Below are positions 6,155-60,500 of a DNA stretch of 64,000 bases, piece by piece. Location: NCBI GenBank assembly GCA_950295325.1, contig OX485809.1:21328001-21392000 (forward strand), written 5' to 3'. The position numbers were made by a program, and so were the translations under genes. Below the pieces are notes generated by a model. It was not told the DNA's origin. It saw nothing but the letters and a program-made list of their open reading frames with translations, and searched no databases. The DNA comes from Polytrichum commune (Eukaryota > Streptophyta > Polytrichopsida > Polytrichales > Polytrichaceae). The first letter of the stretch is position 1; each line of letters opens with the position of its first letter.

Positions 6155-9100
6155 TCACCTCATTGCTAGCCAGCCGATAGGTGCCCTAGTTTTCACCCTC
6201 CATGTAATGGGTACCTCTAGCACTCTAATATCCTTGCCACCTTGAAATCCACAGTTAATCAGCATAATGAATAATTGAATTGCACATGGCATCCATCCTG
6301 AAAACCATGACCATATATATAACTCAGTGACCTGCTCCTTGTAGCACATAGCTTCGTGTACTCGCCCCAAACCTCAGTGTATCACCCACACTTAGTCTCT
6401 GTCTTTCTCCGCTCTTTAACTGCTTGCCATTCAAGAAGGTGCCATGGGCAGATCCCATGTCTTGTATCCTGACTTTCCGGCTTGCCTCACAACTCAGCCT
6501 CGCATGCTGCAAAACAACCACATCACAAATGAGTGTTTACTCTTTACAACGGGTGGCTTAAACCCCAAGGCTTTAACACTTGACCCTAAACCCTGAACCC
6601 CAAAAACCTAAACCCAAGGCCTTAACCCTAAACCCTACCACTATGACCCACCAATATAGTGAACTCAATATATTGGTGAACTTGATATTTTGGTGAACTC
6701 AATATTTTCAACCAACTATGTGGGAAGTCAAGGGCTTGCCCTTGAGGGAGCAGGCTGGCTTGTCCACACCCATTCAAATTGGACCAATCTCCACATTCGA
6801 TTGTTGATTCTTTTGTCTACAGTATAGCTTCCTACCAATGTCAACAGCTAACACACAGTATGCAACACAGCTTAAGTTGGAGGTGCTAAAGAGCTAGAAT
6901 ATGGACCTGGCGAGATATAGATGCATGATCCAGCACAACATCGCATGTAGATGCACGACCAAAGACAAGTTCTCCGTTCTTCCCAGTCAAAGCAACTGTT
7001 CCTACCACAACCCCTCCCTGCAGAGGTTTCCAAAAGCCACCAACAAACAAGTCAGCAAAAGTTGTTATTGTCATTTCAGAGAGTCCAACACAATTCTGAG
7101 CATCTGCATTGAAGGACACATATAACAACAAGTCTCAAAAAAAGCCTGATATCATGCACTTCAACTGTTGAAGTTAGTAGCATGGAACTTAAGGTAGCTT
7201 AGATGATTATAAAATGTAGTCCACCAATGACTTGTGAGGAGAGCGATAATGGCCCATCCTGAAATAGATATAAGGCCATCTACACTGCAATAGACAGATT
7301 AGCCAAGCAACTGTGGAATTGCCACACCTTGTTGTCCAAGTTAAAAAGACAAGGCAGGCCCTGTCAATTATCTACAACAACTTGCGTTCTCATTTGGCCA
7401 AGGTATGAACATAGTAACCTTTAAAAGGCCTTTTAATCTTGAACCCTCTTGATATTTTTAGCTAAAAGTGGCAAAGAGACCCTGTCTAAAACTAGCCTAT
7501 TCATCACATGCATCCTCCAATTGGAGGATACATATAGGTGTAATAAATTATAGGAAGATCTGACCACATATACCTAATCACCGTTATCATGTATGACAAA
7601 AATGATAGGCAAGGCATCATGGTATCTATGTAAACTCATCCATAAGGAAGGTGAAAACTCAGCAAATCATTTATAGCCTTAAATACCTTGTTTTAAACGA
7701 ACCCCAAGCCATACTGGTTCATGTTCGGACAAGTTGTCATGTATCTCATATTAACACACCCTCAGTCCTTTTAAGGGTTAAGGTATACCTTCATTATTTC
7801 CAGATATGCATCTCCTGCCTTCCCTGCAGATCTGCCAGGTGATGACACGCCCGTCATCAGATCTGGTGTCCTTGAGGTGTCTTGAGGTGGCACAGAGGGA
7901 GCTTCTACAGCAGTTGAAAATTGGGATACACGAACATGAGGCTTGGCTGGAGCTAGTCCAAGATCTTCTTCATACTTGTTCAGGGCAGCTAGGAAGCCAT
8001 CATTTGGAGCAACCTGCTTCCTCTGCTCCTTCAAGTATCTGATGTCAAACAAGATGAAACAATTCTATGTTAAGGAGAGAAATATCCAACATTTGCTAAC
8101 AACTGCAGAAGATGATTTGCTGACGAATATACTACTTTCTTACACAGAGAAGGACTGAAAACTACACCAGAGAAGCACAACACAAACAGGAACAAAAGCA
8201 AAGCTGGACGCTGTCCTAGGAAGTCAATTTGCAAACACTACACACTCAAGCAACTCAGGATTACTAACTCGAGAGTCTGTTTGACTTTCCAACGCCGTAC
8301 TCGCATGAGATAGGCAGCACACAGAGTAGCTGAGCGACTTGCACCCGCACCACAATGGATCAGCACTTTGCCTCCCTCACTTTCTGCTTCCTCAACAAAT
8401 TGATAACTGGGTTCAAAATGCTGTGCTATATTAGCACCCGACTCATCTGCAACACCATAAATACATGTGAAATTCCTGGATTCATCAAGAGAAGCTACAA
8501 AATTCCTGTCTTGATTGACAACACCCAACACATGAATCATCACCGTCACAGAGTTGAAGAAATCCAAAAGCTCATCGATCACCAGGAAGTTTCAGAAACC
8601 AGTGTGCACGTGCATGATCTGTAAGATTCTACAAATAAGATAACCAGTGGTTACATCATACCCGCAAGATTGAGAAACAGCTGTTTGAATTTCCCCTTCA
8701 TTGCCAATGGGTCTGTGTGGATAGTAAGGATGTGTGTGATGTGAAGGTCCTCCAAGCGGCTGACAGCTTTAGCATGTTCTAAGTCACCCAAATAAAGTAG
8801 GCCTGGGACAATCTGTCATTCCCCAAAAAGAGGTCCGTTTTAACAACAATGTTGAAACAGGGACCAGGCTTTCACCTCACCTTTGCATTTCCACATCTTA
8901 AGAAAGTTGAAGATACTACTTCACTATACTAGGTGGTGAATAGTAACAATGGAAACGGAAGTAGATTAAGTGATTGACATGCAAGTAAGTTAAAGCCGAA
9001 GACACAATGGTACCTCAGCTGGGTAGCTCGGTATTGTGGCCGCCTTCGTAGACTTCGTCACGAGAAATGGATATGCCCGTGCAAACAATGAAAAGGCATC

Positions 9101-24300: not shown

Positions 24301-25311
24301 CAATAACCCGATGCCCACATGACAAAGGGAAATTGGGGCTATACTACTCTCCCCTTTCGAGGATGGACACTATAGTAGTCAGAAACCGAATAAAGAAAGC
24401 TAGCTGCAACTAGCAGCCGTTTACTGTTGTTTTGTTGGTGTTATAAGGTGTGATTTTGTCGCGTTGGTGTTTGCCAAGTCATGTTTCCTCGGTTGGTTGA
24501 GGGAGGATGTTATCAGAGACTATGCATCAAGTTCGTTGTTTCAAGAGCAAATTTCCTAACCACTTTGCGTTCACACTTGAACGTTACTAGTTCTTAGGTG
24601 TATTTGGTTCTATCTTTGGTCCATTCTATGTTAATGTGGATGTTAACTGTAGTTATGCGTTACTAGTTATTGGTCTATTTGGTCTTTTCTATTTTTGCTC
24701 TATTCTATTTTAATGTGGATGTTAACTGTAGTTATATGTTACTAGGTCTTGGTCTATTTGGTCCTTTCAATTTTTGGTCCGTTCCATTTTAATGTGGATA
24801 TTATCCATTCGAAGTTAATGTGGATGTTAACTATAGTTACACATATATAGTTACATATATTATATGTATCTAGTAAAGTATGTTTGTTTCTTAAATGACT
24901 TCTTCAATTACTAGCCAATTTTAAAATTTATTATTTTTTGGGTTACGTAACTTCTTTTTACACTTTAATTACTAATGATTAGGCAAAAAAGGTGTCCAAG
25001 TTGCTTGAGAGCTATATTATTAAAAAATTTAATTATATATAGTTATGAACATGTTGCGTTCAACTTTTAATTAATTATATATAATTATAATTAATTGAAT
25101 ATTTTAGCAAACCAAATTTAAACCACTATAGTTAAGATATTTGGAACTACCAGTTGAAAGGAGTCTTGACTCATAGTTGTATGTAATATATAAGCCCTGG
25201 GGTTGGGTGGAGCATGCCTCTTTAACCTCATTATTGTGATATTCGCCTTCGCATCTTTTACTCTTGTGTCTATTCCATTACTGTTTTTTGCTTTTGTAAT
25301 CTGTTGTAAAT
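21328..25311. other. AT-rich gene-poor region
   Basis: No supported gene. A (TA)n tract lies at about 21532-21549. Short open frames near 22388-22796 and 23169-23499 have no recognised domain. Towards 25100-25311 the DNA probably passes into the 3' untranslated region of the LINE at 26282, but the LINE terminus could not be fixed. Confidence 0.4.
24583..24830. repeat. Three imperfect ~80-bp tandem units
   Basis: Units share GTTACTAG, GGTCTATTTGGT, TTTTAATGTGGATGTTAACT and TGTAGTTAT, spaced about 80 bp. They are non-coding and AT-rich and lie in the spacer before the LINE. Confidence 0.65.
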
Positions 25312-26252
25312 TACCTCTAAGTATGTTTTTTTGCAAAAACCGCTATTTATGTAAAAACGTTTTACCTCTAAGTATGTTTTTTGCAAAAACCGCTATTTAT
25401 GTAAAAACATTTTACCTCTAAATATGTTTTTTGCAAAAACCGCTATTTATGTAAAAACATTTTACCTCTAAGTATGTTTTTCGCAAAAACCGTTATTTAT
25501 GTAAAACATTTTACCACTAAGTATGTTTTTTGCAAAAACCGCTATTTATGTAAAAACGTTTTACCTCTAAATATGTTTTTTGCAAAAACCGCTATTTATG
25601 TAGAAACATTCTACCTCTAAATATGTTTTTTGCAAAAACCGCTATTTATGTAAAAACGTTTTATCTCTAAGTATGTTTTTCGCAAAAACCGCTATTTATG
25701 TAAAATATTTTACCTCTAAGTATGTTTTTTGCAAAAACCGCTATTTATGTAAAAACGTTTTACCTCTAAGTATGTTTTTCGCAAAAACCGCTATTTATGT
25801 AAAAAAATTTACCTGTAAGTATGTTTTTTTGCAAAAACCGCTATTTATGTAAAAACGTTTTACCTCTAAGTATGTTTTTTTGCAAAAACCGCTATTTATG
25901 TAAAAACGTTTTACCTCTAAATATGTTTTTTGCAAAAACCGCTATTTATGTAAAAATGTTTTACCTCTAAGTATGTTTTTTGCAAAAACCGCTATTTATG
26001 TAAAACATTTTACCTCTAAGTATGTTTTTTTTGCAAAAACCGCTATTTATGTAAAAATGTTTTACCTCTAAATATGTTTTTTGCAAAAACCGCTATTTAT
26101 GTAAAAACGTTTTACCTCTAAGTATGGTTTTTGCAAAAACCGCTATTTATGTAAAAACATTTTACCTCTAAGTATGTTTTTTACAAAAACCGCTATTTAT
26201 GTAGAAACGTTTTACCTCTAAGTATGTTTTTTGCAAAAACCGCTATTTATGT
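25312..26252. repeat. 50-bp minisatellite, about 19 copies, just after the LINE stop codon
   Basis: The unit contains TACCTCTAAGTATGTTTT, GCAAAAACCGCTATTTATG and TAAAAACGTTT. The marker CCGCTATTTATG (one copy CCGTTATTTATG) occurs 19 times at 48-51 bp spacing. Units differ mainly in homopolymer length and at the CG/CA position in AAAACGTTT. GTAAAAACGTTTTAC is nearly self-complementary. The array starts about 30 bp past the LINE stop (26282, minus strand), so it sits where the LINE 3' untranslated region should be. Confidence 0.95.
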
Positions 26253-26281: not shown

Positions 26282-29200
26282 TTATTCTGTGGGGATTGCT
26301 TGATTGTTTTCTATACGTCTCTTGTGTAGGAGGATTGAGCTAGCAAATTGTATGGCAATAGTGTTTATTGCTTTGAATGTATTTTTAACATTATTTTCGG
26401 GTATTTTAAATGTTTGTTCAAGTTGTTTCATTGATGGGATGTGCGTGGTTCCTCTAGCTCCTGCTGTTATGACTATAAGTGGGTCTACTTTCCATCCTTG
26501 TTGGGTGATGTCGTTAATTAATGGTTGGTATTTTTGGATTTTGTTGTTGATTGTATCTTATGAGAATCTATCATTAGTGTATGTAAATTCGATGAATTGT
26601 ACCGTTAGGTTGTTGGTTGGGTGTGGTGGTGGGGTGCTTTGGTGCGGGAGTTCTTTTATATATAGAAGGTTAGGTTTGAGTCTAGCGTTGCAGTGGCATC
26701 TTTGTTGTATACATGTACATGTTAGAAGCCATGTTGGGACTGTATTTTCTTGTGGGTTGTTGTTAAATGTTCCTGCGTTTATGAGGGTGTAGCATCTTGA
26801 CTTTTGTGATGATAGGATTAGTTTTCTTAATTCCCATATTGCTTTGTTATGTCTTTTGGTTCTGAGGGAGTGTATGTGATGTTGGTTGCATTTTAATAGT
26901 ACGTGTAGCCATGTGTCTGCATCTGGTGAGTTACAGATTGGGCATGTAATGGATGAGAATCTTTCTCTGCCAAAGAATAGTTGTTTTCTAGCGTTACCCA
27001 TATATTGTCCGGTACTGAATTTTAGGATACTAGTCTTTTATGAATCTGTTATTGTGGGGTTAGACCAAAAGTGATTAGATATTTCGTTGTCTATGTCTGG
27101 GTTTGTTGTTCATTTATTAATGTTGGGGAATTGTATTGCCAATTTTTTTAGGTTGTTATCTTTATCGTGTTTAGTGAGGTATGTTTCAAGGCATCGGACT
27201 GGGCCTTTATCAGGTCTTTTGTTTGGTCCCGTCCATGTGTCTTTTTGGAAGTAGTATGGTGTGGTATGTGTAAATTCATATGTTTTGGCAACAAACCTAT
27301 ATTGTTTTTTAGTGCCTTGTTTTGCAAGTTGGTCAGCTTGTTCATTTCCGTCAATGTTTATGTGTGTTTTTACTTTATATATCGTAGTGGGTTGTGTTCG
27401 GTTTTTTAACATTTCAACCATAGATGTCAGTATGATTTTGTCAGCATGGTTATTATGATGAGTTGGGTGTTTTATTTGTGTGTTGATTACATATAGGCAG
27501 TTTAGACAGTCTGTAAATATGTGTGCAGGTTCGTTCGGGTATTTGGTTGTGATTATTTTGAGGGTTTTGTATATGGCCATTAATTCGGCTCTAAAGCTGG
27601 TTTGTAGGCCGGACAGTCTTTTTGATATACGTATGTCTATTTTCGTTGGGTTATAGATACCATATCCAGTTTTTTCTTTCTTCCATTGCCCGTCATTAGC
27701 TTTCATGGGTGGGATAAACGAACCGTCGGTGTAATAGCTATATTGTGGTAGGAATTTTAATGTGTGTTGGGTTTCGTAGTTTGGTATTGGTGGTATGGGT
27801 GTAATTGATGAGTTATTATGTGGTGGGTAGAGTAGTTTGTTCCATTTAGTGTTCTTGTTTACGGGTGTATTATTTGGTGTGGGTGGGGTTGTTTGTATAT
27901 GGTATTGTGCTATTTGTAGGTTTTCTATTGTTGTTTTGATTGTGTCTATTTGGTTGGGAGTGCCAAGATTATTGTGTTGGTGGTGGATGCAGAGTATATG
28001 TATTGCTAATGGTTCTATTTGTGGTTTATTGAGGTTTTGAGGGTTTGTTGGTACATCGTATGTAATGGTATCTGCGGCGAAATGGGCTAGGACATATGTG
28101 TCTGGGAACGGTCCTGTATGTGGTGAGTAGTTTTGGTACCAATTTGTGTCTGGTGTGACTATTAGTGTGACGGTGTCTGGGTCATTTCTGGCTGCTAGGC
28201 GTGCCCAGTGTATTGCTTGTTGAGTCATTTCTTCGTTTTGTGGGTGGGCATAGCCAATTCCGTGCCATTTGTATTGGAAAGCAGTGCCTAATGATCCAAA
28301 ATTTTTATCTCTTGTGAATGGTGAGAAATATTTTGTAATATGTGTAGAGCATGTCATTGGTGAAGAGAAGTAGGAGTGTGAAATGTTAAATGCTTTTGTA
28401 ATGGAGTCAAGGAGGTTTTGTGGGAGAGTGTATGGAGATGTTTTAAGTGGATTTTTTTTTGGTATTTTAGAGTTATATCTTTGATATAGCCAGACTACCT
28501 TAGTTTCGAATGGTTGTGGGGGTGGTATTAGGCCGTATGTCCTGTAGGTGTCTTTGTTATATTGTTGTCATAGCCAATTTAGTCTGGTGGTTGGGATGGT
28601 TATGAGATATCTCCCTGTGTCTTCGTATATGTGTGTTATTTCGTTTTGTATTTGTATAGTATGTTTCGTTGTATTAATGTCTCTTTCTGGGTTGCATTCT
28701 ATTATTGATATTTGGGTGTGTGGTGTTATTGTAGGTGGTGATATGAATCTTGGGTCTTTGATTTGTATGGGGGTTATATGGGTATGAATTAGTTTGTTAT
28801 AGTGGTTGTGTTGTTGTCTTGTATAATATTCTTTTAGTAGGTTTATGTTGTGTTCGATTACTGAGGGATGGTTTGGTGGGAATAGTTCTTTTTGTGGCAT
28901 CCACTTGTAGTATGTTGCGTTGTTTTGGAGTGACCATTGGCATAGGTATGTGTTAATTTTTTTTGTTATTTTATATTTGTCTTTCGTTATGTTTGCTTTG
29001 TGCTTTAGTATGTTGTATATGGGGAATTTGATTGGGTTATTTGTTATGTTGGGGGGTGGGTTTGGTTGTTGGGGTTGTTGTGTTGGTGGCGGGTGTAAGG
29101 GGTTGTCTAAGATTCTGGGTAGTAATTCTCTATTATCTGATATGTATTTTTCTTGGAGTGTGCGGGCTTGTGGGTGTCTATTACATTGGATTGGACAGTT

Positions 29201-29487
29201 TTGGTTACAACTTTGTTGACAGAAAAATTGTTCTGCTATGTGTAGTGCGCTTTTTATTAGTTTTGTCGGGGTTTTATAGTAGGTTTGAAAGTCTTTTGGT
29301 GACATTAAGTGTGTGCCATTGGGAAGGGAAATGTGTTTTATTTTTTGTATGTTTAGTGTTAGGAGTTTATATAGTAGTTTAAGAGATAGTTCTTTGTTTA
29401 GTTGTGGTAGTACGACTGTGGCCTGGGATTTCCATTCTGTTTCAAGTTCAGTTGCATGGAGCTGGAAATTTGTTTCTATGCTTTTGA
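26282..29487 (-). pseudogene. LINE ORF2, C-terminal part with RNase H
   Basis: This is one continuous minus frame with stops at 28568 (TGA), 27110 (TGA), near 27050 (TAA) and 26558 (TAA), then the apparent natural stop at 26282. No frameshift was found. An RNase H type I domain lies at about 27300-27760, with YYTDGSF, FRAELMAIYK, HIFTDCLNCL and VKTHINIDGNEQAD supplying the expected Asp-Glu-Asp-Asp carboxylates. Downstream are a CPIC...HVLLKC Cys/His segment, the Cys-rich CTCIQQRCHC, and the conserved tail ending LLHKRRIE. Upstream is a His/Cys cluster (CQQSCNQNCPIQCNRH). The stops make this copy unable to encode a full ORF2. Confidence 0.8.
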
Positions 29488-29640
29488 CACTACAAGGAAA
29501 TGGCTGTCAAATTGACTGAAAGTTGACAAAAAATTGTCCGAATTGACGAATGTCGTATTTTGGTGCTGAGTTTTGTCAACTTCGGAATTTTTCAAAGCAG
29601 TTGACAAATTTTTGTCAACTGCTCATGACGATTACAGCGT
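29488..29640. promoter_or_regulatory. CACTA left terminal inverted repeat and subterminal motifs
   Basis: After CACTACAAG come clustered copies in both orientations of a TTGACA/TTGTCAA motif, for example AAGTTGACAAAAAATTGTC, TTTTGTCAACTT, and GTTGACAAATTTTTGTCAAC, which is a near-perfect palindrome. In En/Spm, TnpA binds short subterminal repeats to bring the ends together; these motifs are the obvious candidates here, by inference. Confidence 0.7.
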
Positions 29641-30728: not shown

Positions 30729-33700
30729 TCAATCTTCGTTTAGCTCTGACTCAGTTAAAGACGCTTCTGAAGTCGAATCTTCTGTAGAACTTGCGGCTTC
30801 CTCAGAATTGGTGGCCTCGTTGCTGTCAATGTCTTCTTCCGCATGACGTCTTCGGCGTATGTTTCGGTGTTCCTGGTCTTCATTTTGTGCTCTCGTTCTC
30901 CTACGAGCTTCTGGTCCCCTGTACCGTCTTCCCTCTTCCTGTAATTCATCCTCTCCGCTCCCTACATTGTTTTCGTTCACTTCTGGTAGGGGTATGTCCA
31001 TGCCAACACGTCTGCCACGTCTGCCTCGTCCACCACGTCCACCACGTCCACGACCCCCCCGGCCCCTTCTTGTTACCCTGTTCCTTCTCATGACTGGTTG
31101 CAATATTATGTCTTCCCCTGTTTCTGCCATTTCTACCTCTTGCTCCCCCACTTCGCGATCCGGGCGCAACCCTTCAAAATCTTCATCTTGCCCCATTGCG
31201 AACAACTGTGCGTCCTCATTGTCTTCATTATTTGGTATAACTCTTCTCCCTCTCACCTCTTTCCTTAGCACTACTCTCCATCCTGGTGACTCCTTATCTC
31301 TTGAGAAAAACACTTGTTCACAGTGTCTAGGAAATGCAAAACTATCGAGGCAAATAGTTCCGTATCTCCTGTCATAGTTTGCTAGTGTGAAGCCCCATTT
31401 ATCTCGTTTTATTGTTGCATTTTCGCCTACATAGTTTGCCTTCACAAAATCGCACACTAAAACTACTACACAGTGGCGTCTATAATTCAATTCTAAAATT
31501 TCTTCAATGTGCCCTACATATTCTACATTTGCATTCACGGGGTTAACATCTCTGGTACCGTTTCTGCAAACTTGTTTAAATGTGGCAGCAACTCCACTAT
31601 CACAAGTTTTCAAAGGTTGCTCTGAACTAAGAACTCTATAATGATTTCCAAATGCGTACATTGATTTGTAAGCATGTGCTACGTTTAATGGACCTCTAGC
31701 TGTGTCTACTACCATTGGATTCAGTATGGCCCCTACCTGCTGATCACGTCTCACCTCCTCAATTACCCACTGTGCAAACTCTGGAATTTTGGAGAGTGAA
31801 GCTGGGTACGCAAACCTGGTTCTCCTCCCACGTCGACGTTGTTCACGTCGATACTGCTCCCGTTCCTGCCCTCTTTCAGTCACAACTTCCTCATACCTCC
31901 TGTAAAGCATTACAAGATTTTAGACAATTTTCCTTCTACATATAGCCTCTGCATTATTTAATATTGCGATACGAACGAACAAAACTAATGAAGCATCTCG
32001 AACTCATTCTGAAATACTAGAAATTGCTAGTAATTCTAGAAGTAAATGCCATTGATTAGAAGAAAAAGGAAAAAAAATATTAAAGATTCGTGTAATTAAA
32101 GCTAAGCTTGCTATTTTTGAGGCGACAAAAAGAAAAGCAATGACGGGTGTAGGGGAGTTAGAATCGAAATGAAGATTACTCATTCTTTTCTTTCATTCAA
32201 AACTGTGCATGAAATTTTCATTTCACACAGCTCCTAAGTAATAAAAATTTATATTATTACTTTCCTCGTGTGTGTGTAAAAAAAAACTATAAATAAATTT
32301 ATTGAAATTAAACTTTACGAGGAATCCTGTTTTATTGATTTTTCTAATAAATATACTGACTTAAAAAAATTATGTTAAAAAAATTAATAACAAATTTAAA
32401 ATAAAGAAAGAAATCATCTAATTTTCTTCATTTTTATAGTCATCATTTTTTATTTTGCTATCGTTTAGGACTTACAACTCTCCAAAATTGACTGTGACCG
32501 ATCTACATCATCCTACGAACTCCCTGAGTAACATACATTGTTCACACAAAACAGAAGAACTACATGAAAATACTTAAGTACTTATAGAATACTATGATAA
32601 AGCTTACCTTCTATACGGCTCCATGTGCTCCGTGTTGTCCAACACAAACCCATGGATGAGTTTCTGGAACTGTGGTGTCATCATACGGACTCGGTTGGCG
32701 CCTTCCAATATTTCATCATACATTGCAGGTTCCTCCTTATCATCCCAGGCACGCTTTGTTGTAGGAGTATATTCCGAGAGATATTCATTCAAAAATCCTA
32801 TGGACTCTTCCCTCAAATACCCGTAAGCCATACTACCTTCAGGTCTAGCTTTGTTTTTCACAAACCCTTTTAATCCCTTCATGTACCTCTCAAAGGGGTA
32901 CATCCACCGCGTGTGTACGGGACCACATATATACAATTCCTCAACCAAATGTATTGGAAGATGCATCATGATTACAAACACAGATGGTGGCAACTCTTTC
33001 TCAAGAGTGCAAATTGTTTCCGCAACCTCTTCTAGCATGGACAATTTTTTATCGGCCTCTATCACCTTTGCACAAATTTTTCTAAACAACCGACTAACCC
33101 GCATGACAGCTCCAACTACTTTTGGATGTCCAATATTCCTCAAGCACAGGGGTAATACCTGTTGCAGTAAAACGTGGAAATCATGGGTTTTCAAGCCACG
33201 TAACTTTCCGTCTTGAATTCTCCTGCTCAAGGATCCTACGTAATTGGAAGGAAACTTCAATTCCCGAAGCGTACTCATAAATTCCTGTTGATGTTGTTTC
33301 GACAATACGTATGGTGCATCCGGCTTGAAGTATGTTTGCCCATCCGCATTTCGTTGCAAGTGTAGATGTTGCCGTATGCCTCGTGCTCGCATATCCTCTC
33401 GAGATTTTGCACCATCTGTTTCACCGAACAGAGTACGAAGCAAATTGTCGCATACATTTTTCTCACAATGCATTGCGTCCAATGTATGACGGGTTGGGAG
33501 TTTCTGTCCACAATGCACAGTAACGGCTTTACTTTAGCACAGTGCCCCTTCGCCAAATCTGCCTACTTCCGTTACAGTATGCAATTTCTTTGAGAACACT
33601 ACACTGTTCTACTCGACTAGTATATTCAATTCCCAAACACGCATGACAGTCATGCTGCGGACTCCACACTCCTGCACTGTGAGACTTATTACCGCAAATC

Positions 33701-35949
33701 ATAAACCTCGCGTGTACAGTTATTCTCCACAATAATACTTGATCCGTGAATGTACTAAATTCGATACCTAGTATAATATTTAGCAGAAAACACAAATATA
33801 GTAAATATGGAGGAACTAAAAGCAAGCACAATCGATCTCACTCACATCCTAGTGGAAACTGCATACCTGTACTGTTCAAGCAAAATCACATCCACTACAT
33901 CTCCCGTTCCACACGAGCAATGCAAACTAAGTGCATACTTCCCACTAAGAAACTAAGATTACATCCTACATAACCCACATATGAACTAATAACTTTCATT
34001 ACGAATATCCCCCACAAAATAATTTTTTATAAAATAATTTTACCTCCCAATACGGTAGTTCAAAGAAGATGCTAATTCTTTTGACACCGGTTTTCTTTAC
34101 TGGATCGTGCTTCGCATTTGGACGGCCGCCGAGTTCCAGGTATGTCGTTCTCCAGGCTCCTCGTTGTATCACTGTCAATCCTGTCTGTCTATGTGGTGCC
34201 TCGTCATAGTTCGGACGTCCGTTGAATGCCGCTCGAGCTGCTCTCCAACGATGATTACGCCGCAGCCACCTGCGATTTCCTAAAAAAACTGTCTTGTGCG
34301 CATGTCTGGAATGCTCAGCAAATGTCCCTTCCCCGCAGATAGGACATCCAGCATATCCTTTCCCTGACTGACCAGAAATTAACGTATAGGCAGGGTAATC
34401 GTGTATAGTCCATATAAGCATTCCTCGCATGTTGAAGTTTCTTTCCTGTCCAACTGGTTTAGACATGTCAACCGTAGGTACGCCCACCCACAACTTCTTG
34501 AGCTCATGCACAAGTGGTTGTAAATATACATCGATTGTGTCTTCAGATGGAGAGTTAGGGCCGGGTATAATCATACTTAAACAAATGAAAAACCTCTTAG
34601 TCACTAGATAAGGTGGTAGATTGTACAACACTAACATCACGGGCCAGACTGAATGCTTTGATGACTGATGGCTATGGGGATTTACTCCGTCTAGGGCTAG
34701 GCCCATCCTAATGTTTCTATCTTCCCTACTAAACACAGGAAAATTATTTTCTATAAATCCCCATTGCTCACTATCTACAACAGATCTCATTTTTCTATCT
34801 ACAGAATGATTTGTCCTGTGCCACCGCAGATGTTTAGCCAGTTCAGGACACCTAAACATTCTTCGCAACCTTTTTATGACTGAAAAATAGCGTAACACTC
34901 GTGTAGGAATAGAACTAGACCCTGGTATGTACCTTGAATTTTGGCATTTTGGACAGTGGTCTAAGTTTAGGTTTTCTTTCCAATATAGGGTTTTACCACA
35001 CTGACAACAGTGAATTGTTTCATGTGACAATCCTAGTTTCAGCAGTAGACGCTTCATCTCATACGACGATTTCGGACAGGTATTGTCAGCAGGCAAGACA
35101 TCATACTTCAAGAAGGTTAATATCTCGTCCAAGCAATGATGGCTGACAGAATACAAGGTGCACAACGACATGAGAATAATGCTGAATTGTAACCTGCTGG
35201 ATTGTGACCCCTGAAACAATGGCTCCGCAGATTCTCTAAGTAATTCCTCCATTAAGGGTGTCATGTCTGGTTGTTCATCTTCAGATGAGAAGTCCTCGAA
35301 ATCCAAAACACAGTCCTCCTCATCTCGTTCTTGTTGATGAATCTCGTCCACCCGGGCGAAATAGTTTTCAGCCATCTCCTCGAAATTAATGTTTGTGTTT
35401 GGAGGGACTCCTTCAAACTCGTCCATATCTTGAGCATCTAGATAAATTTCCTCCTCTTCTACAACATTGCTTTCTTCAGGAAGTTCGTCACCGATTTCTT
35501 GTGGCAATACATCACCGCCTTCTTCACCGGAGTTCTCCCGCTGTTCTACACGGCGGTTCGGATTCCTCTGCAGAACGGGTGCTCAATTTGCAAAGTACTT
35601 GAAGCGAAAAACAATTACAGTGATGAGTGGATGACAAAATTCTGCACCTTCTACTTCTCGCTAATTTATGTGCACACAATGAACATAACTGTCATGCACA
35701 CAACCTCACGGGATATGCAGCTCCACGTACACAGTAATGGTAAGAAAATTAAAGTCCAGAACTCACAAGAAGAGGTTCCACAAGCTCGGTGTCGCGTCCA
35801 TACTTTCGATGATGAGTTTCTACTGTCTGCACCGACTGCGTTTTAAATCCATGGCACTTTTCACATGCACATGGATACCTTGTTATTCCTTGTCGCGCTG
35901 CCAGGGCCCTCTCTATGTGGTAGGCCTGTCCAAGTGGTGTTGGCCTCAT
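30729..35949 (-). CDS. TNP2-type CACTA transposase (TnpD-like), 4 exons, uninterrupted
   Basis: Exons are 35949-35767, 35567-34044, 33503-32608 and 31899-30729, with GT-AG borders and matching phases. They give 1257 residues with no internal stop. Exon 1 carries the transposase-associated N-terminal domain (YPCACEKC, then HHRKYGRD). Exon 2 opens with a long acidic stretch, then a zinc-ribbon-like CCQCGKTL...CPKC, then the TNP2 catalytic core ([41 protein letters not shown]). Exon 3 has [15 protein letters not shown] and the DUF4218-like region ([20 protein letters not shown]). Exon 4 has a DUF4216-like segment ([21 protein letters not shown]), an Arg/Gly-rich stretch and an acidic Ser/Glu tail. 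The protein cuts and joins element ends in the nucleus. The ATG at 35949 is the first in frame. The upstream GTG-initiated extension to 36015 was not used. Confidence 0.88.
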
Positions 35950-46909: not shown

Positions 46910-47284
46910 AACGGAGTCTCGGGGGGTGCATTGTACTAAACATGTACGAGTATACGTGAGTGCACATGAGGGGTATTGATTTGGACCTTGCCGTATTACG
47001 TATACATATGGTATACATGTTATAATTTATAGTTATGTACATATACGGAAGGCCTTTAAAAAGTATACAATAATTGTACTTGTATGGTAGTGTTACTATA
47101 CTACATATCATAAGTTTTCATATTGGATGAAATTAGGATTAACTAGGATTAACGATTTTTGTTAGCAACCTTATAGGGTAGTATGAACCATGTACAAGGT
47201 ATCAAGGTAATATCGGGGAAAGAGGCAGTATTAGGGTTCTGAAATGATTCGTTCATCTCAAAGTAACAAGGACCCTTTTCCCCT

Positions 47285-47395
47285 CCCATCCCTAGGTTTT
47301 TGTTTTCTCTTTTTGTCGGGCGCTGAAGGTTTTTGTTTTCTCTTCTAGTTGGGCGCCGAAGGTTTTTGTTTTCTCTTCTTGCATAGCTTGCTTCT
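47285..47395. repeat. Three ~36-bp tandem units upstream of the 211-codon gene
   Basis: GGTTTTTGTTTTCTCTT recurs three times, separated by TGTCGGGCGCTGAA / CTAGTTGGGCGCCGAA. The copies lie about 75-180 bp before the ATG at 47468, so they are probably 5' untranslated or promoter sequence of the element gene. Confidence 0.8.
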
Positions 47396-47467
47396 TTTGC
47401 CGACAACTGCTTTACTTTTCCTTCTTTCACCAGTTGCTTCCAGCGCTTCTCAGCGTCCCTGCAGTTA

Positions 47468-48103
47468 ATGTTGCCGTGGGAATCACCGAAAGTCCTGACA
47501 TTGTCATGGCCTCGTTCTGAAATTCCCTCTCTATCAAATGCAAATTCAGTTGTGGCTTATGTAATGGTAGGGAAGTCTAGAATTTTTAAAAGTACACTTG
47601 TTAGTCAATTGAATGGCAATCCTTCTTTGTGTAAAGATCGGTTGACTCGAATTAGAGCTGGCATATTATATATGAAGCCTAAGCTCCTGAGTGTTGGAAA
47701 CCATGACACTTTGTTAAAGCTTGGTTGTGATTGTGTTGTGTGTTTTTTGAACACACCTGCAGATAAAACTGTGAAAAAACGACGTAGGCCAAAAAAATCT
47801 ACTCGAGTTAAGGTTTGGTTTGTTGGGAGAGTTTATAGGATGCGGAGGAAGTTTGGTAATCGTGGGGTGGAGTATAGGGATCCAATTGACTTGATGGACC
47901 GTCCATCAAATGTGGAGATTGGTTTATGTTGGTATCAAAAAGGGGCTAACAACAAGTGGACATATGATCTTACTGATCATTTGATGGTAGATTTAGAGAC
48001 AATAATTGCATTGGCTATAATGACATATATTGGTGAATCAAATGTTTATGAGTTACATCCGGGAGATGAAAAAGTTTTCAACGACTTTGCTAATGAAAGC
48101 TAG
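47468..48103 (+). CDS. Unrecognised 211-residue basic protein of the TIR element
   Basis: ATG at 47468 and TAG at 48101-48103 bound one open frame inside the 1.43-kb element. I do not recognise the family. Visible features are a CDCVVC cysteine cluster at about residues 88-93, a strongly basic nuclear-localisation-like stretch (KKRRRPKKSTR), a Trp/Arg-rich segment (VWFVGRVYRMRRKFGNRGVE), then EYRDPIDLMDRP and a C-terminal YELHPGDEKVFNDF. It could be a DNA-binding accessory protein or the remnant of a larger transposase. A possible acceptor (CCCTGCAG|TTAATG) just before the ATG leaves room for an upstream exon. Absence of stops suggests it was intact recently. Confidence 0.6.
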   Translation: MLPWESPKVLTLSWPRSEIPSLSNANSVVAYVMVGKSRIFKSTLVSQLNGNPSLCKDRLTRIRAGILYMKPKLLSVGNHDTLLKLGCDCVVCFLNTPADKTVKKRRRPKKSTRVKVWFVGRVYRMRRKFGNRGVEYRDPIDLMDRPSNVEIGLCWYQKGANNKWTYDLTDHLMVDLETIIALAIMTYIGESNVYELHPGDEKVFNDFANES

Positions 48104-48354
48104 GATATTTTGTTATACATATTATAGGGGTTGATTATTGTTCAAAAATATATTTGTATACTTGTGTTAATGACTATATATGAATGGATGTTTTTTTTGT
48201 GTATACATATTGTTACTTGTATATTTATTGTTGCAATTGTATGTGTATTACTTCATTTCACAAAAAAAACTTGTATATAGGGGGTTTTTAGAGTATGTAG
48301 TGAACACACGTGATTCTAGGTTTTAATGAAAGGTGCACCCCCCGAGAACGGAGT

Positions 48355-57545: not shown

Positions 57546-60500
57546 CCGTACCTTAGGGGCAGCTTCGGCAAATAATAATTCCAAATAGTAATGTCGGAAT
57601 AAAAAAAAAAATTATGCAACCAATTTGCCAGAAAGTTAGGAAATTAATTTAGGTGAATGGCGAAATGTCCTAAAAATCCAGCTCATGAATAAGAAATAAA
57701 AAACTGTAGGTCTAATCACATGAAGTCCATTAGGTCCTCACGAGCCCCTTGCTTACTTAATAATAGACAAACTTCAAACTCATTAAGGAACACAAGGTTG
57801 GCACAAGTCTCTTGCCTACTCAATAATAGGTAAAAATCAAATCCATTATGGAGCACAAGGCTGGCAGTGGCAGTGAATAAGCAAAAGGGATTGCAACGGC
57901 AAGTCTTATTCTGGCCTCTTGCTCGCACATAAGTTAGTGCCTCTTCCTCTCAGATCTTCTCTTCGCTTCGAGTTTGGAGTTCTGGGATTTCGAAGGGACT
58001 CGACTGTTTAGGGTTTGTAGCACCTGTGAGTTTCTCTTGGGAAGGACGAGAGGAGCAAGAGGTGACTTGATTTGGTGTTATTGCACAATGAGATCTTACA
58101 GGCTCTTTGAACTTGATATAGATATAGATATAGATAAGCACTCGCATTGGTGGAAAAGGCAGAGCTGGTATAAGTTTGTTTTACAAGTCTGAATCATCTA
58201 AACTGCATCTTGCTTTGAACGTGCAGTCTATAACTAGAGGAAATCAAGGCTTGCCCACAAATTTGAATCTGCTAGATTGATTGGGGATGAACAGTTGCAA
58301 GAACCCGTATCCAAAGATGTGTGCTCCAACTTGTCAATCTTCATTCAACTTGTCCATTCTTGAAACATTCTTTTGTGCACTTGATTTCCTACTCCGTTGT
58401 CTCTTATCTTTCGTACCCTGATCAATGTCGTGCTTGTCATCTGCGTGTAGGGTTCTGGCATAGGATAAAATTCAAATTGTAGGCAGTTAGTCTTGGTAAG
58501 AAAATTACAAGTTTATGGCAATAAAAAGATCTCACATTTTAACACTTCAGATGTAACTTCAACTTTTTCTTTGAACTTGTTTGGAATGAACATACCTTTT
58601 TCTGGCTCGATCTTTCATGGTTGTCACTACAGATCTTTTATTTTCCCTTGTAGCAGCAACAAGAGATAGATTCTTCTCCATTATGGCTTCAATACTTTCG
58701 TCTGGATCTGTTTCGTCATCCTTTTCCTTGCAAATTTCTTCTGCACCTTGTACTTCGTTGAACAGTGAACTCTTCATGTGTTCCTCTATAGCAGATGTCT
58801 GAAATGATGATTCAAATGCTTGATCTAAGCCACACATGCTCCATCCTCGTTTAATCATGTCTTTTTTGTTGATATGTTGCCATGCTTGATACAACCAGCT
58901 GCACAGCAAAGGCTTAAGCACTGACATTTTTGTATTTAACTCTACATCTTGTAATTCCTTCTCGTCAATCTGTTTGCCAATATTTTCAGAAGTGTAATTG
59001 TCAAACTGCTGTCTGAAACCATGCTTGAATGGGCGCTGTAAAATCACATCTGCTGGCTGAAAAACGCTGGTGCAATTTGCAGGGACAAAGATAAGTAGAA
59101 TCTGTGGATGTGATATCTTCAACCAACAAATGAAGTCCTTAGAAATATGAACACTCCAACAGTCCAGCAACCATATCAACTTTGTTTCTTCATCTAATCC
59201 CATCTCTTGCACTTGTTTTCTTCTATAAGGTTGTAAAATTCGTTCAACAAATTGCTTGCAAGTGGTCAAGTTGCTCCAATGATTGCTGCTATATGTTAAA
59301 TGCCAACCAGCATCTTCACACATTTGGCGACCTTCATTTCGAGGTGGGGGAGATCTATCTGTAGTCCCTGTAAAGACAAGTTGAAAAGGTAACAAGTTTC
59401 CTGCAGCTGAAGAAGACACTGAAACTGTAATTTGTCTTTTGTCTTCCATACCTAAGATTTGTACATGTTGGACCCTTTCTCTACCCAAGTGCGTGCACCT
59501 CCCGCTGGTACCAGATGTATCCCTGTTTGGTCAGTGTTTATGACCAGTTCTGGTGCAATGGAATGGGCTTTGACAAAGTAGGTTGTCCGTTGTGCCATTT
59601 GCAAACCCTGATGCTCCCAATCTTTTGGTAGTTTTCTAGCTGCTCCTGTTCCTTTCCTAAAGCTCCAATTCAAATTCGTTCTCACAAAATCTCGTGTCCA
59701 CTCTAAAGAAACCCTAAATCCACTTGGACTTTCAAAATTGAGAAGGTTGGGCTCTCTCTTTTGAATGAGGGTTCGAATTAAGTTCCTCACAGTAGAAGCA
59801 AAAAGAGGTTGACCTACTTCACGATGTGCCTTCAACAAGGTAATTATCTCTTCCTCCAATTCACGATGGCTAGAAAGAACATAAGCATGTTGAATTCCAC
59901 CTGTGTAAGCTGCTGTTTCTTTGAATATTGTTTGTTTTGTACCATCTTTTAGTTCCCCTGTCTTAGTGAACCATTCTCTCATGGAACCTCTGGTTAAATC
60001 ATCATAAACACTCTTGGTTTGTCCAGGCAACTTGTATTTCGTTTGCAAATACTTCAAAGCATGACCAATACTTCTATGATGTGTTACAGCTGCATAGATA
60101 GGATCCCAGAGAGATGGTACAAACCAATTCTTGTATGGTCCTCTAGTTTTTTTCCTCTTTGGTGTTGTGTCACATTTCTCCTCTTTGATTGGAACAAGTA
60201 CAGCTTCGATCTCCCTCTTAGGCCTCCCCACTGGACGTTTCTGAACTTCTTTCTTGATTGATTTCTCCAACTCCATCTTCACATGTAGCTGAGCAAAGTC
60301 ACGCTCAACCCTATCTTCCATTTCCTCTTTGTCTATGACTGTGAACATATTGCTCAAAACTTGTTGTTTACCCATGCTCTCAATCACTCATTGGCAAGAC
60401 ACTTAACCTTATAAGCACTTACAAGAATCAAAGCAATGTTGCAAACTTCTCACAAGTCCCTTGACAAACTAGCATTTGCACAAATAGGCCCCCATGGTAA

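Follow-up and report, generated by a model that had tools for sequence, protein, structure and literature searches.

The 64,000-nt stretch of Polytrichum commune DNA analysed here (the window) contains a transposon bounded by terminal inverted repeats (TIRs) and a target-site duplication (TSD), with one open reading frame flanked by non-coding parts (Table 1). The perfect 13-bp inverted repeat and perfect 8-bp duplication described in the first-pass annotation are both exact; in the family consensus the TIR is 14 bp long (CTCGGGGGGTGCAC), and in the window copy its 14th base is mutated at the 5' end. The flanks have an uninserted paralogue (L057) with a single target, AATGGAGT. The joined window flanks match L057:3152-2789 unbroken (86% over 364 bp), in a stretch that adjoins another copy, and the single AATGGAGT thus represents an empty site, which shows precise insertion with an 8-bp duplication.

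Table 1. Features of the transposon, and a short relic elsewhere in the window (window positions)
Feature	Position	Strand	Remarks
Whole TIR transposon	46918-48346		exact TIRs and 8-bp TSD
Left TSD, AACGGAGT	46910-46917	none	exact
5' TIR, CTCGGGGGGTGCA	46918-46930	+	exact, 13 bp; 14 bp in family consensus
Four clustered GTATAC palindromes, 5' subterminal	46950-47068	+	at 46950, 47000, 47011 and 47063
Pyrimidine-rich tandem repeat	47294-47381	+	33-bp unit, 2.7 units
211-aa frame	47468-48103	+	conserved protein region approximately 47516-48103
AT-hook position	47774-47797	+	KKRGRPKK in most copies, KKRRRPKK in window copy
3' non-coding trailer	48104-48333	+	GTATAC at 48156 and 48201
3' TIR, TGCACCCCCCGAG on + strand	48334-48346	-	exact
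Right TSD, AACGGAGT	48347-48354	none	exact
Short relic like the gene's C-terminal codons	2611-2661	+	17 aa, 76%, E 7.5e-4 (window-only search)

The genome (408 Mb in seven chromosome-sized contigs) was searched for the ends and the copies were aligned, as the first-pass annotation had proposed. The 40 best candidates scored included 39 near-full copies, those other than the window copy being 92-97% identical to it, and the possibility raised at first, that no other copies share these ends, does not apply. The exact 14-bp consensus end occurs 721 times compared to seven for a reversed-pattern control (5359 and 990, respectively, with up to two mismatches), and is followed by a pyrimidine in 708 of the 721 occurrences; the window element ends likewise (CACT or CACC). 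The ends were placed automatically in 35 distinct copies, and in 28 of them a perfect 8-bp TSD adjoins these borders directly; the remaining seven comprise three TSDs matching at 7 of 8 positions, three borders misplaced by one base and one truncated copy. The target sequence differs from insertion to insertion in these 35 copies.

Pairing of the first 100 exact ends (C1:0.3-50.1 Mb) resulted in 27 adjacent facing pairs, all of which span 271, 702-720, 784-787, 1167, 1269-1270, 1383-1428, 1604 or 1752 bp. No pair exceeded 1752 bp, and the larger same-end relative with a DDE protein that the first-pass annotation had in mind was not found among these 27. The many exact-end pairs of 271-1752 bp and the lack of larger ones argue for a non-autonomous family moved in trans. 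Two length classes, 1396 and 1429 bp, differ by 33 bp, i.e. the tandem-repeat unit, and the shorter class mostly has one unit fewer. The copies diverge from their own consensus by 1.1-3.2%, so the amplification burst was recent. Moreover, transitions in CG and CHG contexts are approximately 80% saturated compared to 29% for CHH, and this cytosine decay suggests a footprint of plant-type methylation, with the host methylating the family heavily. In the consensus, six GTATAC sites lie within the two 300-bp ends and none in the middle; six GTATAC were reached in one of 1000 shuffles, and some palindromic 6-mer did so in 43 of 1000.

The first-pass annotation described a clean frame for a 211-residue protein without transposase motif. 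The frame is present, and continues open upstream of the ATG (238 codons). The ATG itself is private to the window copy (35 copies compared), and relatives share the frame from about codon 15-26 onwards. A frameshift origin of the start (ATGGCCTCG plus TCTGAA) was rejected, ATGGCCTCNTCTGAAATTCCCTC being absent from the genome at up to two mismatches. The absence of a transposase motif was borne out by the profile searches then suggested: the window-copy protein had no match in Pfam, NCBIfam or PDB, a profile built from ten copies had none in PDB, and the only match among the copies was to the Pfam AT_hook (8 of 10 intact copies), which is weak with a best E-value of 0.029. Hence no recognisable transposase is encoded, and one of a wholly unknown type is still conceivable. 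The AT-hook motif KKRGRPKK, which the window copy no longer has, suggests that the family protein may bind DNA. No relatives of the protein were detected in viral and prokaryote contigs, a literature search for the TIR sequence and conserved peptides gave no match, and an AlphaFold model of the single sequence (pLDDT 31) was set aside.

To evaluate selection on the frame in the 35 copies we derived the expected numbers of changes from rates in the element's own non-coding part, taking cytosine context into account. Non-synonymous changes numbered 126 (138.5 expected), synonymous changes 28 (46.9 expected) and stops 14 (9.2 expected), and variable sites were distributed over the three codon positions as 58/51/42, with the third position the lowest. 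With no signal of purifying selection, the frame is not maintained in the 1.4-kb subfamily; to this extent it is not the clean gene first described, and the window copy carries it as a passenger in decay. In four relatives at 65-67% identity the frame is free of stops and of net gaps (552 bp for 184 residues each) and, as judged from their coordinates only, it was probably under constraint longer ago.

Relatives of the protein are present at 150 or more places in the genome, with identities from 100% down to 51%. Next to a 53%-identical relative (C1:5371960-5372502, minus strand) we detected the end CTTGGGGGGTGCACT at C1:5371718, i.e. 242 bp beyond the C-terminal codon; the corresponding spacing in the window is 249 bp and the 716-bp class has equal spacing. 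With five divergent C1 relatives, the probability that any one of them has an end so placed and oriented by chance is approximately 7e-5; the association was seen once, with no end of the type searched for at the other divergent C1 relatives. That gene and 3' end occur together across approximately 47% protein divergence argues against recent capture and, together with the open frames of the 65-67% relatives, identifies the gene as an old resident of this TIR family. Two closer relatives, of 92% (C4:55013324-55013908) and 88% identity (C7:18135632-18136222), form part of longer open frames (796 and 505 aa, respectively), which could represent host fusions or a longer transposon gene.

With respect to the transposase that might move the family, no autonomous element with the family's ends was seen, and no hAT transposase (hATC, DUF659) is present inside the window element. 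On C1, matches to hATC and MULE domains were not close to exact ends, among the matches listed, and were no nearer to divergent relatives than expected by chance; a MULE or hATC partner identified by proximity was therefore rejected. A profile search revealed a DUF659 (hAT) gene with an open frame of 455 aa (C1:54641878-54642336, minus strand), convergent with and 1.2 kb from a 67% relative (C1:54640126-54640677, plus strand). By chance, such a pair would be expected with a probability of approximately 0.05 when the divergent set is considered and of 0.18 when all listed relatives are; the three other relatives of 65-67% identity have no DUF659 match nearby, and no CTYRGGGGGTGCACT end was found near C1:54640126. 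We regard this neighbour as a lead only for the autonomous partner. Dozens of near-identical copies of one hAT family, with 1084-aa frames that are intact, are also present in the genome (e.g. C7:27951530, C4:5519248 and C1:14053436), and this family is probably still, or was recently, active; none of these genes was seen between a facing exact-end pair on C1. Genome searches with KDZ (PF18758) and P-type RNase-H (PF21787) profiles gave no match, and the controls were equally silent.

As stated in the first-pass annotation, the ends are unlike those of standard hAT elements: nearly all copies begin with CTCGG and not with the classical C/TA-GNG. Likewise, the target shows T at position 2 in 13 of 33 cases and A at position 7 in 10 of 33, with a weak GnTnnAnC-like palindrome instead of nTnnnnAn. 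Although an 8-bp TSD would fit, the misfit of terminal bases and target preference kept us from filing the element as hAT.

Other repeats are present around the element, and the surrounding sequence and genome have Copia, CACTA and hAT content, which together with the methylation footprint points to a plant host. On the minus strand of the window, CACTA pieces lie at 30729-35582 in the order Transposase_21, DUF4218, DUF4216, and a Pogo/Tigger-like DDE_1 transposase, a type uncommon in plant genomes, is present as two overlapping frames at 58559-60387. Two long frames with RNase_H and PCIF1_WW (methyltransferase-related) matches at 26558-29506 (minus strand) are part of a 4-kb stretch whose strand asymmetry is extreme, with a GC skew of approximately +0.4 and an AT skew of approximately -0.33; they are adjoined by a 50-bp tandem array (25311-26252), and the region is possibly an unusual retroelement. 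A short degenerate interstitial array with the telomere-like unit ACCCTAA is located at 6583-6637.

The data can be read in more than one way. One is that the gene is a host gene fragment taken up by Pack-type capture and has no role in transposition. A frame that has no transposase-like motif and is not under selection among the 1.4-kb copies would agree with this, and the 796- and 505-aa frames (C4:55013324; C7:18135632) could be host genes. However, a gene-to-end spacing common to the 53% relative means that any capture is old, and the range of identities across so many places is what a family of transposon genes would show, which makes capture unlikely. We find it harder still to place the element among MULEs, with an 8-bp TSD, short TIRs and a mudrB-like second gene. 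MULE duplications do vary around 9 bp, and the second gene of maize MuDR, which is convergent, encodes approximately 207 aa. Against this, the TIR is only 14 bp, the TSD is consistently 8 bp and not 9, and no MULE domain (PF10551) matches linked to exact ends or relatives were found beyond chance; we consider this reading improbable. Least credible is that the gene encodes a compact transposase of unrecognised type, in which case either the 1.4-kb element or one of its intact relatives would be autonomous. It is the sole gene of the element, intact frames exist at all levels of divergence, and no known transposase linked to the exact ends was found; yet with approximately 195 aa the protein is small, it matches none of the transposase profiles of Pfam or NCBIfam and nothing in PDB, its frame is unconstrained with stops common in amplified copies, and relatives of 271 and 716 bp have moved too, and the idea appears very improbable.

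We therefore favour the view that this is a non-autonomous cut-and-paste transposon carrying the remnant of an accessory gene from a larger, possibly hAT-like element, and we consider this to be probably correct. TIRs, a TSD with an empty site, dispersed copies and no known transposase, i.e. everything by which a non-autonomous TIR element is recognised, were found; its mobility is ordinary and the gene is its sole unusual part. Of the two outcomes envisaged in the first-pass annotation, the derivative with a retained accessory gene agrees best with the data, given the association of gene and 3' end over such divergence, while a new element type finds no support in ordinary mobility, an unconstrained frame and the lack of a larger same-end relative. 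A transposase encoded elsewhere would bind the TIRs, and perhaps the clustered GTATAC sites, and would excise and reinsert the element in trans with an 8-bp stagger. Internal deletions of a larger element would have given the size series, and the gene would be a leftover second, non-transposase gene of the full element. Its product, a basic AT-hook protein of DNA-binding type with approximately 195 aa, probably once aided transposition or expression. Among the recently amplified 1.4-kb copies the gene has become dispensable and is decaying. The autonomous partner is possibly hAT-like, considering the 8-bp TSD, the abundant intact hAT genes and the one relative located by a convergent hAT gene.

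Tentatively, and as a possibility rather than as a likelihood, the gene may encode the putative second chromatin- or DNA-binding protein of a hAT-like element that has two genes in convergent orientation. It would combine the AT-hook with a conserved domain of approximately 170 aa that is new to Pfam, and, in analogy to MURB or VANC, would act as an accessory or anti-silencing factor reading the GTATAC end sites, with deletion derivatives as its present-day parasites. Should such an accessory factor be maintained, it would join the small number of proteins other than transposases that are known from plant DNA transposons and, with the heavy methylation suggested above, might be a lineage-specific counter to silencing; if not, the element exemplifies a deletion derivative with a dead gene.

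Compared to known systems, the element resembles non-autonomous hAT elements (Ds/nDart-like) and their MITEs in its 8-bp TSD, short TIRs, deletion size classes, empty sites and lack of a transposase, but differs from Ds/nDart-like hAT elements in its CTCGG ends (not C/TA-GNG), in having no T2/A7 preference and in the unrelated gene aboard. In maize, mudrB of MuDR encodes MURB, which is small and is the second, non-transposase protein of this element, and the gene described here would likewise be that of a small second, non-transposase protein; the TIRs of MuDR, however, are long and its TSD is 9 bp. The VANC proteins of Arabidopsis VANDAL elements are element-encoded, DNA-binding accessory proteins with an anti-silencing function (PMC5735166). 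As in that system, a short motif is repeated in the non-coding DNA of the element (GTATAC, at both ends), whereas VANC motifs form dense arrays and GTATAC is present at six sites. Finally, the element is like Pack-type elements in being non-autonomous and carrying an unselected, non-transposase frame, but its gene is old and family-wide and not a recent capture.
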